This document shows positions 19,587-48,253 of a DNA stretch of 62,020 bases, piece after piece; positions within the stretch are counted from its first letter, which is position 1; each line of letters opens with the position of its first letter. Under the pieces are notes generated by a model. It had not been told where the DNA came from, did not search any database, and saw only the letters and a program-made list of their open reading frames with translations. Position numbers and translations under genes: made by a program. Origin of the DNA: an uncultured Erysipelotrichaceae bacterium (GTDB taxonomy: Bacteria; Bacillota_I; Bacilli_A; RFN20; CAG-826); assembly GCA_902800355.1 (NCBI GenBank), contig CADCEE010000007.1, forward strand, positions 1 to 62,020, given 5' to 3'.

Positions 19587-19654
19587 GTCAATTAGTAGCC
19601 TTATTTACCCATAATGGCGAACTAGATAAATCTAAGGCTACTATTAATGTTGAC
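19587..19654. repeat. Imperfect 68-bp inverted repeat
   Basis: GTCAATTAGTAGCCTTA at the left end pairs with TAAGGCTACTATTAATGTTGAC at the right, read in two arms with a 3-nt bulge and an A/T-rich continuation (TTTA/TAAA). The right end overlaps the -35 box TTGACA of the plus-strand promoter at 19650. No T-run follows on either strand. It may be the processed 3' end of the peptide mRNA at 19704-19790 or a small mobile-element relic. Confidence 0.6.
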
Positions 19655-19678
19655 ATTAGTAACCGCGTGGTCTACATT
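19650..19678 (+). promoter_or_regulatory. Promoter of putative antisense RNA A
   Basis: A perfect -35 TTGACA (19650-19655), a 17-nt spacer and -10 TACATT (19673-19678). A start near 19684 would give a roughly 40-nt RNA ending at the terminator at 19692-19724. Confidence 0.5.
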
Positions 19679-19683
19679 ATAGA

Positions 19684-19724
19684 TGTGTGTTGCCCTCTGG
19701 TTACTACCTAAGGGCTTTTATTAT
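19684..19724 (+). ncRNA. Putative short antisense RNA A with terminator
   Basis: Predicted from the promoter at 19650 and the plus-strand terminator GCCCT-CT-GGT-TACT-ACC-TA-AGGGC followed by TTTTATTATT. The RNA is complementary to the last codons and stop of the small hydrophobic ORF at 19704-19790, as expected for the RNA antitoxin of a type I module. Confidence 0.45.
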
Positions 19725-19790
19725 TACTGTAAATATCGAAATCACTATTTCTAGAATTAAGATAATTACTGTCTTCTTTTCAGTCGACAT
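19704..19790 (-). CDS. Small hydrophobic peptide, type I toxin-like (copy 2)
   Basis: A 28 aa ORF. A polar start (MSTEKK) leads into one membrane-length stretch (TVIILILEIVISIFTVII) with a glutamate in its middle, then the basic end KALR. The ribosome site is AGGTGG 5 nt before the ATG, with AGGTAGGAG further up and a CACCT-GTTT-AGGTG hairpin upstream. The same order (hairpin, AGGTAGGAG, ATG, central Glu) is found at 19966-20046, and the two peptides align without gaps over 13 residues. The 3' end overlaps the plus-strand terminator of RNA A. Size and architecture fit pore-type type I toxins; no family match is claimed. Confidence 0.55.
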   Translation of the reverse strand: MSTEKKTVIILILEIVISIFTVIIKALR

Positions 19791-19919
19791 AATAACCACC
19801 TACTCCTACCTTTGATACACCTAAACAGGTGATTAAAAGTACAAAGAGACCACGAGACAAACTCCTTTTAATAGGTTATTACCCTATCAAAGGATTTAAT
19901 CAAGACTCTATTAGAGAAC

Positions 19920-19948
19920 TTGACTTTTAAGCGTTATTCAGTTATCTT
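19920..19948 (+). promoter_or_regulatory. Promoter of putative antisense RNA B
   Basis: -35 TTGACT (19920-19925), a 17-nt spacer and -10 TATCTT (19943-19948). The distance to the following plus-strand terminator is the same as in module A. Confidence 0.5.
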
Positions 19949-19953
19949 TTAGT

Positions 19954-19993
19954 TGTGGTTCGACCCTAACGCTTGTCCGTTGGGTCTTTTTTT
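19954..19993 (+). ncRNA. Putative short antisense RNA B with terminator
   Basis: About 40 nt, ending in the strong terminator GACCC-T-AACG-CTTGTC-CGTT-GGGTC plus seven T. It is complementary to the final codons (DPTDKR) and stop of the peptide ORF at 19966-20046. Confidence 0.5.
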
Positions 19994-20046
19994 ATAATCA
20001 ATAAGATTATGATGATCTCTATGAGAGCAACAATAATTTCTTTCAT
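19966..20046 (-). CDS. Small hydrophobic peptide, type I toxin-like (copy 1)
   Basis: A 26 aa ORF: MKEIIVALIEIIIILLII, then the polar end KKDPTDKR. It is a single membrane segment with a central Glu at residue 10. The ribosome site AGGAGGGAG lies 7-8 nt before the ATG and is very strong for such a short frame. A CATCTA-TGCG-TTAGATG hairpin stands just upstream. The leader is long (about 140 nt) and structured, as in regulated type I toxin mRNAs. The 3' end overlaps the terminator of RNA B on the other strand. Being a paralogue of copy 2 argues that it is coding. Confidence 0.6.
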   Translation of the reverse strand: MKEIIVALIEIIIILLIIKKDPTDKR

Positions 20047-20061
20047 ATAAAACTCCCTCCT

Positions 20062-20210
20062 ACCTCGACTCATCTAACGCATAGATGAACTAGATAAAAA
20101 GAAACTGAAGAAGAAAGAAAATCACTAGAGTCATCCAAAGTGCGCCTCTTGAATGAGTCTCGGATTATAGAAACTTATAAAAGTCCCTACATTTTATATA
20201 GAGTGAAAAA
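20062..20210 (-). promoter_or_regulatory. Structured leader and promoter-like motif of peptide copy 1
   Basis: On the minus strand, TTGGCG, a 16-nt spacer and TAAAAT (20191-20218) could be the promoter. The stretch CTCTATATAAAATGTAGGGA recurs nearly unchanged before the YhcG-type nuclease gene (48181-48205). Downstream, 20105-20165 folds into AGACTCATTCA/TGGATGACTCT, and 20066-20084 into the hairpin before the ribosome site. Confidence 0.4.
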
Positions 20211-20248
20211 ATCGCCAACCTTGCGAAAAAATATTTAAAAAGTTGATA

Positions 20249-20276
20249 TAAAAAAGAAAACTGGCAAAGCCAGTTA
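20249..20276 (-). terminator. Terminator of mscS
   Basis: AACTGGC-TTT-GCCAGTT followed on the minus strand by TTCTTTTTT; the stem overlaps the stop region of the gene. Confidence 0.85.
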
Positions 20277-21143
20277 TTTCTTAATATTTCTTTCTGTTGA
20301 AAGTGCAATAGAAACGCCTTTTTCTTTAAACGCTAATAAGACTCTTTCGGTTAATTGATTATATAAGGTCCAATAATCTTCAAACTTTGTCCAACATCTA
20401 AGACGGAAATTAACTCCGTATTCCACGAAGCTTTCTGCATAGACATCTGATTTATCAGTGTTAATCACAAGTGGTTCATCTTTAATGACAGACCATAAAG
20501 CCTCTTTTACCACTTTTACATCCGCGTCAATACTAACACGTACATCAAAGTCAATTCTTCTTTCGCCACTTACTGTATAGTTAGTGACTACCGCACTAGC
20601 CATATTCTTATTAGGGATAATAATTCTTTGTCCCTTCACATTTCTTAAAATAGTGATGAAGAAATGAACTCTTTCTACAGTCCCTTCACATTCTCCAAAA
20701 GCGTTTTTTACTGAGATATAATCTCCAGTTCTAATAATCTTTTGATTTAAAATCAAGATTCCAGAAAAGAAAGAACCAATGAGATCTTGTAAGGCTAAGC
20801 CTAAAGCCACGCCAATAGAAGCTACGACTCCGCCTAAACCAGTTAAGTTAATTTTCAAGATGCCACAAACAGCAAAACCTATACCAACCCAAATAAGGAA
20901 TTTGATAACGCTAATAATTAAAAGCTTTGCGGAGGCGTCAACATCTGGTCCTCTTTTAACTTTAAAAGCTTTCTTTAAACCAATAGTGACAAGTTTAAGT
21001 ATTAACCAAGTGAAAACAATTAAAGCAACGGCAATTCCAATTCGCGCTAAATAGTTAAGGCCATCACCGTCAGGAACCCAGAAAAAATCTCCAACTCTTT
21101 TCCAGAAATCAACCCAACCTTGCCAAGCGTCTAATGTTTTCAT
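20274..21143 (-). CDS. mscS: Small-conductance mechanosensitive channel, MscS family
   Basis: A 289 aa protein with three membrane helices (about residues 32-52, 72-95 and 98-125). The pore helix is glycine/alanine-rich: GGVVASIGVALGLALQDLIG. A beta domain follows (GDYISVKNAFGECEGTVERV, then RIIIPNKNMASAVVTNYT) and a cytoplasmic vestibule. MscS channels open under membrane tension to release solutes after osmotic downshift. It has its own terminator and lies after the rbr terminator, so it is probably a separate unit. Confidence 0.93.
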   Translation of the reverse strand: MKTLDAWQGWVDFWKRVGDFFWVPDGDGLNYLARIGIAVALIVFTWLILKLVTIGLKKAFKVKRGPDVDASAKLLIISVIKFLIWVGIGFAVCGILKINLTGLGGVVASIGVALGLALQDLIGSFFSGILILNQKIIRTGDYISVKNAFGECEGTVERVHFFITILRNVKGQRIIIPNKNMASAVVTNYTVSGERRIDFDVRVSIDADVKVVKEALWSVIKDEPLVINTDKSDVYAESFVEYGVNFRLRCWTKFEDYWTLYNQLTERVLLAFKEKGVSIALSTERNIKK

Positions 21144-45391: not shown

Positions 45392-46018
45392 TTAATATTC
45401 TTCTTTCTTTTTCTTTTTGGTTTTCGCTATTACTAATATTTCGATAGTTTTTGCTCCTTTGCTTCTTAATAAATCAATTGAAGTTAAAAGTGTGCTTCCT
45501 GTAGTCATAATGTCATCAACAAGTAATATCTTTTTACCCTTCAACGATATATTTTCATCTATTTCAATTACATCATTTATTTTATGTCTACCAAAAGAAG
45601 ACTGATCTGATTGTTTATGCGCTATTTTCTTCTTTAATATTGATAATTCTTTTAACTTTAAACTCTCAAAAATTGCTTTTACATGATTAAATCCTCTTCT
45701 TTCGTCTTCAATGTGATATGAAGGAACATAAACTATATAAAAACCATGATATTTAAGTCTAAAATACATTAGATATCTAAATAGAAATATATCCTTTAGT
45801 TCATAATCATAGCAGCCCTTAAATTTATAAATTAATTCCTTAATAAAATCAGTATATTCGTATATAGATATGCCTTTAACATTACCAATTTTAAATGGTA
45901 TGAATTTAGTGTTCATTTTAGAAAAACATTTCTCACATAAAATATTCTTTCTTTTTATTAGATTAAATAAAGAATTATCCGTTATACTTTTAAAGCAAAT
46001 TTTACAGAAATCATCCAT
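45392..46018 (-). CDS. comFC: Competence protein ComFC, phosphoribosyltransferase-like
   Basis: A 208 aa protein. The N-terminal zinc finger is CKICFKS and CEKCFSK. The C-terminal PRTase-type domain has the PRPP loop motif ILLVDDIMTTGSTLLTS near residue 170. It is required for DNA uptake in competent bacteria, probably helping ComFA at the cytoplasmic face; the exact reaction is unknown. It overlaps comFA by 8 bp. The A/K-rich C-terminus (KTKKKKKEEY) is notable. Confidence 0.9.
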   Translation of the reverse strand: MDDFCKICFKSITDNSLFNLIKRKNILCEKCFSKMNTKFIPFKIGNVKGISIYEYTDFIKELIYKFKGCYDYELKDIFLFRYLMYFRLKYHGFYIVYVPSYHIEDERRGFNHVKAIFESLKLKELSILKKKIAHKQSDQSSFGRHKINDVIEIDENISLKGKKILLVDDIMTTGSTLLTSIDLLRSKGAKTIEILVIAKTKKKKKEEY

Positions 46019-47168
46019 TATCTAATGCCTCATTATTCTTTTTTATTTCTGCTATTGATTCTTTAATATCGAGAGTCACTTTTTCGCATAGGTAAATTAC
46101 TTCTCCTCCTGGCGCATCCGCCTTTCTTCCAACTCGTCCTGCGATTTGAATTAATGTGCCTTTTTCATATATTTTATGGTCAGTTTGACAGATAATTACT
46201 TGCAAATTCTTTACAGTTACCCCTCTTTCTAGTACTGAAGTAGTTACTAAATATGAATATAAGTGATTACGAAATTCTTCGATGATTTCAGATCTACAAT
46301 TCCTCTTAGAATGAACATAATTTCCACCTTTAACAAATAAGGAAATTACTCTATAGATTTTTTCGCATAAATTAATGGTGGGAGCAAAGACAAATACAGG
46401 TTTGTTATTTTTCTTATAGTCCTTTATTTTTCTAATTAAATATAAGTATTGAAATAGCTTATTTCGTTTAACTATTTTGGGTATTGGAAGAGGATGACGA
46501 TGGAAACGAACTTCTAATCTTAATATATCTTTGTTATCACCATGGAAATGATCTATTACTTCTTTAGATGGAGTGGCAGACATCATCACATAATTTCCAC
46601 ATAACGATTGATAGAACATGCTATGTAATGTTGGATCATCTTTAAACGGAAAAGCGTCTATCTCATCTAGGATAATTAAAGAGAAATAATTCTTATATCT
46701 ATATAGTTGATGAGTAGTTAGGACCACTATATCACCTTCTTTATCTTTTGTGTGCCCTCCATATAGGCAAACTACCTTATTATATTTAAATATTTCTCTT
46801 AACCTATTATGTAATTCTATTGCAACATCTCTTCTAGGGAGTGCAAACGCAACTTTATCACCACAATTAATTGCATATTTAATAATGTTGAGGCAAATTT
46901 CAGTCTTTCCTGATCCACATACCGCAAAAACTAAGCTATCAATTTCCTTCTTATAGTTCTCTACTAACTTATTTGATAATTCTTTTTGTTCTGGCGATAA
47001 CTCATATTCTAAATAGATAGGTGCTTTTTTAGGATAAGATGGTTTGTGTTCTACTTCTTCACCACAAAAAGATATGCAACGACGACAGTATGGTTTGCCG
47101 TTTAGGTAACCAATTGAATGAATGTCGTTATTACCACATATTGGACAAACGAAACTATTTATCGACAT
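46011..47168 (-). CDS. comFA: Competence DNA-uptake helicase ComFA
   Basis: A 385 aa DEAD-like ATPase that pulls single-stranded DNA into the cell during transformation. The N-terminal zinc finger is CPICGNND and YCRRC. Walker A AVCGSGKTE is near residue 83, with DEID, MMSATPS, TTSVLERGVTVKN and IQIAGRVGRK. It overlaps the YhcG-type nuclease gene by 14 bp and comFC by 8 bp. Since com genes are present, natural transformation may be possible if the comE and comG genes exist elsewhere. Confidence 0.92.
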   Translation of the reverse strand: MSINSFVCPICGNNDIHSIGYLNGKPYCRRCISFCGEEVEHKPSYPKKAPIYLEYELSPEQKELSNKLVENYKKEIDSLVFAVCGSGKTEICLNIIKYAINCGDKVAFALPRRDVAIELHNRLREIFKYNKVVCLYGGHTKDKEGDIVVLTTHQLYRYKNYFSLIILDEIDAFPFKDDPTLHSMFYQSLCGNYVMMSATPSKEVIDHFHGDNKDILRLEVRFHRHPLPIPKIVKRNKLFQYLYLIRKIKDYKKNNKPVFVFAPTINLCEKIYRVISLFVKGGNYVHSKRNCRSEIIEEFRNHLYSYLVTTSVLERGVTVKNLQVIICQTDHKIYEKGTLIQIAGRVGRKADAPGGEVIYLCEKVTLDIKESIAEIKKNNEALDNG

Positions 47169-48147
47169 TAAGAATCTCCCTTATTTCTTTGATTTTGTTT
47201 TCTAGTAATTTCTTATTTATTAATTTTGTCTCGTATGTACTGATTGCTATCTTTGAATTGTTCTGTGCCACTGAATACTCAACGACTGTTTTATCTTTTG
47301 AAGTGCATAGAATAATTCCTACGCTTTGATTTTCGTTATTCTTCTTTTCTTGCCTATTTAATGCCTCTAAATAAAAGCTCATCTTTGAAATATATTCAGG
47401 TTTAAATTCACCTATTTTTAATTCAAACGCAACGAGGCAAGAATATGTTCTGTTGTAGAACAACAAATCAATATAAAAATCATGCATTCCAACTTGGATT
47501 CTGTATTCCTCTCCAATAAAGGAAAAATCACTGCCAATTTCTAAAATGAAGTCCTTTAAATTTGAGACTATGGACTTTCTTAAATCTTTTTCAGAATATG
47601 TTTTTGGTAAATCTAAAAACTCCAATGAATAATTATCTAAGATTTTCGATTTTGGAATGTCATCCTCATCTACAGCGGGTGTTATGCTTTCTAAAGCTTT
47701 GCCATCTGACAACAAATATCTTTCATAATAGCCACTAGATATTTGTCTATTTAATTCTCTTGATGAATAATTGTGTTTAATACAAAGTCTTAAATAAAAT
47801 TCTTTTTCTTCAATTGTTTTTGTGCTGGATAATATGACAACATTATTAGTCCAACTAATTTGTGTCAGCAGTGATGACACAATTACATTGTGTCCATATG
47901 TTTCATAAAACTGTACCATCCGGTATAGTCCTCTTTTATCGAAACCCCTTAAATTAGGGTATAATTTCATAATTTTTCTAGAAATATTTTCAACTATTTT
48001 TGAACCCCATTTTTCTGTTTTAATTTTTGTAGATAAATACTTACCAATTTCAAAATACATCCCTACCAACTCTTCGTTGATTTTTCGATAAGCCTTATGC
48101 TTATGTGTTTCTATTAAATTAATGATTTCTTTGATTTCATTAACCAT
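47155..48147 (-). CDS. YhcG-type PD-(D/E)xK nuclease (DUF1016)
   Basis: A 330 aa protein. The N-terminal domain is the helical YhcG_N type (YFEIGKYLSTKIKTEKWG, WTNNVVILSSTKTIEEKEFY, YSSRELNRQISSGYYERYLL). The C-terminal domain is the PD-(D/E)xK fold: QVGMHDFYIDLLFYNRTYSC, then LVAFELKIGEFKPEY near residue 240, with the expected Asp, Glu and Lys. Members occur in mobile and defence contexts, with proposed roles in DNA repair or defence; substrates are not known. It overlaps comFA, so it would be expressed as part of the com operon, an unusual position. Confidence 0.88.
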   Translation of the reverse strand: MVNEIKEIINLIETHKHKAYRKINEELVGMYFEIGKYLSTKIKTEKWGSKIVENISRKIMKLYPNLRGFDKRGLYRMVQFYETYGHNVIVSSLLTQISWTNNVVILSSTKTIEEKEFYLRLCIKHNYSSRELNRQISSGYYERYLLSDGKALESITPAVDEDDIPKSKILDNYSLEFLDLPKTYSEKDLRKSIVSNLKDFILEIGSDFSFIGEEYRIQVGMHDFYIDLLFYNRTYSCLVAFELKIGEFKPEYISKMSFYLEALNRQEKKNNENQSVGIILCTSKDKTVVEYSVAQNNSKIAISTYETKLINKKLLENKIKEIREILNVDK

Positions 48148-48177
48148 ATTTAATCTCCTTTTTAAAATTGAATAAGT

Positions 48178-48206
48178 AAAACTCCCTACATTATATAAAG
48201 AGTGGA
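48178..48206 (-). promoter_or_regulatory. Promoter-like motif upstream of the YhcG-type nuclease
   Basis: On the minus strand CTCTTTATATAATGTAGGGA includes TATAAT and lies about 35 nt before the ATG. It differs at only two positions from the motif at the peptide locus (20184-20206). No -35 box is evident. Confidence 0.4.
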
Positions 48207-48253
48207 TTTTTTCATTTTTTTGTGAAAAAAAGTTTACAAATTTTAATAGGTAA

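Follow-up and report, generated by a model that had tools for sequence, protein, structure and literature searches.

Organization of the locus

The window analysed here, a 62-kb stretch of DNA from an uncultured gut bacterium of the Erysipelotrichaceae (contig CADCEE010000007.1; all positions are window coordinates), contains a tandem of two small modules that resemble type I toxin–antitoxin systems. Each pairs a short hydrophobic peptide, encoded on the minus strand, with a convergent plus-strand unit predicted to produce a very short antisense RNA. The region, 19640–20243, sits between a minus-strand gene whose product is read as mechanosensitive-channel-like (20274–21143) and rpsF–ssb (19470–18839, minus strand).

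Module 1 begins with a promoter on the minus strand (20181–20243; −10 at about 20193–20198, predicted start at about 20186) that carries a motif also found at competence genes, for which we searched with a sequence-only model (R2); the sequence upstream of the module reads TTTTTTCGCAAGGTTGGCGATTTTTTCACTCTATATAAAATG (within 20243–20181). It is followed by a leader of about 140 nt (20047–20186), in which the ribosome-binding site pairs, within a hairpin, with a run of pyrimidines further upstream, and by the open reading frame (ORF) of peptide 1 (MKEIIVALIEIIIILLIIKKDPTDKR, 26 amino acids, 19966–20046), a putative membrane toxin with homologues in its own genome and in the genus. On the plus strand, antisense promoter B (TTGACT-17-TATCTT, 19920–19948) precedes antisense RNA B (19955–19993, about 39 nt from its predicted start), which is complementary to the end of the peptide-1 frame, stop codon included, and ends in a terminator hairpin (19962–19986) with a T-run. 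Module 2 is composed of peptide 2 (MSTEKKTVIILILEIVISIFTVIIKALR, 28 amino acids, 19704–19790, minus strand), also a putative membrane toxin, and of a plus-strand unit with antisense promoter A (TTGACA-17-TACATT, 19650–19678) and antisense RNA A (19685–19724, predicted start), which covers the final codons of the peptide-2 frame with its stop codon and has a terminator hairpin (19692–19715) with a T-rich tail. Peptide 2 has no competence promoter of its own and is probably expressed by read-through from module 1.

An earlier note on this DNA had described the two minus-strand ORFs of 26 and 28 codons, the two plus-strand promoters and, for each peptide, a terminator that overlaps the end of the frame and its stop codon; all were found at the positions it gave, the terminator of unit A by the fold of 19670–19730 only (a consensus scan lists a terminator for the second unit only). 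The extent that it proposed, 19640–20218, takes in the modules but falls short of the promoter of the toxin mRNA, with which the feature reaches 20243; the competence-type promoter at the start of this transcript had been overlooked. The note had also taken the modules for a duplication. Two related modules do stand in tandem, but peptide 2 is closer to another subfamily (..SIIKALTRKD) than to peptide 1 and the modules have no noteworthy repeated DNA in common, so the pair is a tandem of two related kinds in which no recent duplication is visible. The string AGGTAGGAG, shared by both modules in the window, is not kept in module 2 of the relatives, which have AGGTAGAAGGAGG.

Antisense units share one build

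Seven hydrophobic ORFs of 18–35 codons with a ribosome-binding-like site are present in the whole window, and only peptides 1 and 2 face an opposite-strand TTGAC[AT]-N17-TAnnnT within 110 nt of the stop. We examined 21 module sites, 19 of which have an intact hydrophobic ORF; its start lies 194–213 nt after the start of the promoter motif. An antisense promoter is found at a fixed distance in all of these intact modules (19/19), compared with 0.34% of cases in dinucleotide shuffles of the same 19 homologous modules. The earlier note had argued that the arrangement is hard to explain by chance; the part of its argument that relied on duplication is weaker than claimed.

The predicted antisense RNAs of the 19 modules are dissimilar in sequence, and each folds into a short terminator that spans the stop codon; they measure about 35–45 nt in most modules. 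Four pairs of the terminator stem have changes on both sides (covariation), a count that depends in part on the alignment. The peptides are short, hydrophobic and of single-helix type, and stand behind a ribosome-binding site; the antitoxin RNAs have, at the level of sequence (promoter and terminator), their own transcription unit and complementarity to the toxin mRNA. Support for a type I-like anatomy is good. In family 1, the spacer of the antisense promoter has AAGCG[TC]TA, which is complementary to TA[AG]CGCTT over the toxin stop (19926–19942 versus 19966–19975 in the window), and the two elements change together in several species (alignment A2).

A promoter motif shared with DNA-uptake genes

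The module-1 site scores 63 bits in the window, in which noise does not exceed about 11 bits and the next real site is at 48180–48243 (minus strand). Across the genome, motif sites score about 33–63 bits and the next matches fall below about 17 bits; 17 sites reach E ≤ 0.001. Sites are weaker in distant members of the genus. The genes that follow the motif were examined in five genomes (G000, G003, G014, G011 and G001), combining genome motif searches with individual sequence stretches. Behind it stand the DNA-uptake and recombination genes for RecA, DprA, ComEA-like with ComEC, DUF1016–ComFA–ComFC and a T2SSE ATPase (pilus) operon, as well as a small pilin-like peptide followed by RadC, a C39 peptidase membrane protein, a thioredoxin-like lipoprotein and an ABC transporter ATPase; the other sites precede peptide modules or genes with no assigned function. 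ComFA was named from its helicase domains, its zinc-finger-like start and its position before comF.

This set looks like the late-competence regulon of the lineage. Since the motif is common to the modules and the DNA-uptake genes, the modules are placed within this apparent regulon, and the shared promoter strongly supports a competence link. The same promoter might instead define a DNA-damage or general stress regulon that drives type I-like modules: recA and radC are also damage-linked, type I modules of Clostridioides difficile have SigB promoters (PMC6563280) and tisB is SOS-driven (PMC8309996). The motif is, however, common to ComEA–ComEC, ComFA–ComFC, DprA and the pilus operon, and the genes read behind motif sites included no classical excision-repair operon; we consider a stress regulon improbable.

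Several observations concern the regulon itself. The second motif copy in the window precedes an apparent operon (48147–45392, minus strand; 45392–48243 with the motif) for a DUF1016/YhcG nuclease, a ComFA-like helicase and a ComF-family protein, and DUF1016 nucleases also stand behind the motif at two further loci (L095 and L098). A prepilin-like peptide of 60 residues, whose leader is of bacteriocin type (MKYELLTDSEMEQQVSG/EALTLT...), is encoded behind the motif at L015:1166–1348, and a C39-peptidase membrane protein at L004:265–1482; a C39-type enzyme may process the competence pilin in this lineage. The C39 peptidase and the double-glycine-like peptide had at first suggested a bacteriocin regulon, an idea replaced by competence because the motif precedes recA, dprA, comEA–comEC and comFA–comFC and because the peptide resembles a small prepilin. 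Finally, three rpsF loci (L197 in G005, L202 in G017 and L203 in G006) have a competence-type promoter upstream of rpsF–ssb and no peptide module. That the promoter is kept there suggests that it serves ssb too, which is probably part of the regulon, and that modules are gained and lost in the stretch between it and the operon.

Modules in related genomes

Within the same genome, two more copies of module 1 were found by DNA search, C13 (MRDIILILFEMIIVLVLIRKDPTDKR) and C19 (MRDIILILFEMIVVLVLIRKDPTKR), and the upstream promoter region led to a further locus, C4, with a different peptide (MSEIIFVLILLCYLVYIIKRP) and the same antisense build. A covariance model of the module-1 antisense unit matches 7 of the 19 genomes of the genus and has no match elsewhere among 224 genomes of the family. 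The rpsF tandem is kept in four genomes (G003, G008, G014 and G018), peptide 2 included, but peptide 1 has a broken frame in G008 and a shifted start in G018. Modules encode MELIVILVLLCVLINIIKDPKA in G010, MEYIIILALLSILAAIIKGLSR in G008 and G018, and in G016 METGNALVCLILFVIALVALAIIFKR followed in tandem by METLLILIILCLLVHIIKAPSDKG; the tandems of G016 and G002 are analogous to that of the window. Beyond the genus, genus g40 (G162) has several copies of MQYLLVLVIILLVICLLVK-type peptides, with an extended −10 in the antisense promoter, and genus g42 (G182) has LEQSIVMALIILVILLVLVGNKKGSS with the antisense promoter TTGTCA-N17-TATTAT. The feature is real and recurrent: the type I-like anatomy noted in the window is found again, with fixed spacing of its elements, in more than 10 further genomes, at many loci of the genus and in two genera outside it.

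The exact antisense pattern was also found in 11 stretches of GTDB contigs, all from metagenome-assembled genomes (MAGs) titled uncultured Bacillales, Bacilli or Erysipelotrichaceae, one of them a goat reticulum MAG. A phage origin was rejected, with the exact pattern absent from viral contigs and PHROGs matches only weak. Antisense units with no intact peptide ORF are present at L028:1502–1584, where FIRKDPSDKR is all that remains of the peptide, and at L033:108–191, L003:1345–1480 and L150; they are possibly immunity-like or relics. Gain and loss of modules at one locus, broken frames and orphan antisense units would be expected of toxin loci.

The peptides as proteins

No named family was found for the peptides, in agreement with the earlier note: Pfam and NCBIfam gave no convincing match and no recognisable homology to TxpA or BsrG, in searches that have little power for short hydrophobic peptides, and no known RNA family matched the modules at gathering score (sub-threshold matches to mir-3914 and IS128 were weak and taken as chance). 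The ratio of non-synonymous to synonymous change (pN/pS) is 0.26 for codons 4–18 of peptide 1 and, outside the antisense overlap, 0.26 in the MEII group and 0.36 in the METY group; it is 0.85 in the RDI group and 1.3 for peptide 2, both on few changes. In a placement test, hydrophobicity was preserved above chance (P = 0.0006 for peptide 1; P = 0.018 pooled). For conservation of the reading frames, which the earlier note had proposed to judge by synonymous and non-synonymous change, substitution patterns give moderate support only. The stronger coding argument is that a hydrophobic ORF of similar length recurs behind a Shine–Dalgarno sequence (SD) in many dissimilar sequences.

Two other roles for such peptides can be weighed against these data. 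They could be structural small membrane proteins of the DNA-uptake apparatus (mini-pilin-like or stabilizing helices), with antisense RNAs that tune dosage. They share a promoter with the pilus genes, and for one peptide, from G016, a weak match to Flp1_like falls below threshold (E = 0.0011). This match is confined to that one peptide, and the presence and sequence of the peptides differ strongly among close species, with frames broken or absent in some; a structural role is about as improbable as a stress regulon. Slightly less probable still are secreted hydrophobic pheromones that signal competence at a level set by the antisense RNA, similar to the streptococcal short hydrophobic peptides (SHPs), whose precursors we take to be alike in length, hydrophobicity and acidic residues. 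A promoter in a competence-type regulon would suit such signals. The positively charged or mixed C-terminal tails are, however, constrained by the antisense terminator, each genome has several unlike peptides, and no Rgg-type regulator gene lies beside the modules read (regulators were not searched genome-wide).

Leader and probable mode of antisense action

The leader is more conserved than the peptide in relatives. In the peptide-1 leader the SD has a mean unpaired probability of 0.10, and it is mostly paired across leaders (mean 0.03–0.35), with the exception of G018, in which the start is shifted. Cis-acting leader peptides, functionless as proteins and controlling downstream genes such as the ssb operon, would fit the rpsF modules, which lie between the competence promoter and rpsF–ssb, but other modules have no co-directional gene close downstream (the gene after C4 is convergent) and hydrophobic character is kept across dissimilar sequences, which leaves this reading as doubtful as the pheromone one.

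For the antisense RNA of a toxin–antitoxin module, three modes of action can be compared. Pairing with the leader as in Fst was rejected, since it is no better than pairing with shuffled leaders. Refolding around the SD as in BsrG/SR4 was dropped, since masking the antisense target in silico did not consistently change SD pairing. Taken together, these two results make action at the 3′ end the likely mechanism.

Proposed mechanism

We regard competence-induced, type I toxin–antitoxin-like modules as the best reading of the locus, and a likely one as a whole explanation. A competence regulator would act on the promoter at 20181–20243 to give an mRNA for peptide 1 that probably extends by read-through into peptide 2. 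Each peptide would form one short membrane helix and would probably act on the membrane as a toxin or arrest growth. Outside competence, the constitutive, sigma-A-type promoter on the opposite strand would supply a roughly 40-nt antisense RNA complementary to the end of the peptide frame, stop codon included. By pairing with the 3′ end, this RNA would probably expose leaky mRNA to cleavage by RNase III and to decay, as happens in bsrG/SR4, txpA/RatA and yonT/SR6, and the leader hairpin over the ribosome-binding site would act as a second brake. Strong transcription in competence would out-titrate the antisense RNA, so that competent cells would produce the peptide, in the way that SOS induction leads to TisB. 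The purpose may be growth arrest during transformation, or DNA release from part of the population.

Anatomy, recurrence and the shared promoter motif are observed in the sequences; transcripts, toxicity, the mechanism of repression and purpose are deduced from them, and this weighs against the competence-toxin reading together with the following points. The regulator behind the motif is hypothetical, and transformation in the lineage is presumed. The antisense RNA stops short of the ribosome-binding site, and masking of its target is without consistent effect there. The excess of synonymous change is just suggestive (pooled P = 0.064), and pN/pS exceeds 1 in peptide 2, on few changes.

Relation to known systems

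Several known systems share parts of this build. The likely action at the 3′ end is proposed by analogy with bsrG/SR4, bsrE/SR5, txpA/RatA and yonT/SR6 of Bacillus subtilis, where SR6 serves an mRNA for two toxins (yonT/SR6–yoyJ) (PMC5848175). The toxins there have 30–59 residues and SR6 has 100 nt, compared with 19–28 residues and RNAs of about 40 nt here; those systems are also prophage-borne or stress-linked, whereas the modules described here have a competence-type promoter. As in tisB/IstR-1 of Escherichia coli, a regulon-driven toxin mRNA would overrun a constitutive antitoxin RNA (PMC8309996), except that the regulon is SOS in that case and competence in this one, and that IstR-1 binds the 5′ region of its target whereas the overlap here is at the 3′ end. 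In par/Fst and fst-Sm/srSm, too, convergent RNAs meet near the stop, the peptide is short and membrane-bound, and the SD lies within a stem-loop (PMC3543317, PMC8309996). Unlike par/Fst, the modules lack direct repeats that would pair the antitoxin RNA with the toxin leader near the start codon; the APxxxGxxx motif of the membrane helix is absent from all module peptides compared, with no Pfam match of note. The convergent modules of C. difficile (CD2517.1–RCd8 and others) likewise have overlapping toxin and antitoxin genes and promoters common with a cellular programme (SigB; CRISPR–Cas) (PMC6563280), with longer toxins and a different regulon. The nearest precedent is toxTA of Haemophilus influenzae, whose genes belong to the competence regulon (PMC6957337) but form a type II system with a protein toxin (ParE/RelE superfamily) and a protein antitoxin.

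An open-access literature search found no type I system linked to a competence regulon, and neither a review on clostridial type I systems nor one on membrane type I toxins contains the word competence.

Most of what is known of type I systems comes from prophages, plasmids and stress responses, and their purpose is often unclear. Here, several unlike peptides follow one build and one apparent programme, that of DNA uptake, which offers a concrete role open to test: competence-linked growth arrest or self-lysis. The modules also provide a natural series of very short antisense RNAs, with terminators written into the last codons of the toxin. On evenly balanced odds, in our judgement, an uncultured lineage of Bacilli may have recruited antisense-guarded membrane toxins into its competence regulon, with orphan antisense units as immunity. 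Entry into competence would then arm several toxins at once, arresting growth or sacrificing part of the population to release DNA, and natural transformation would for the first time be linked to type I systems.
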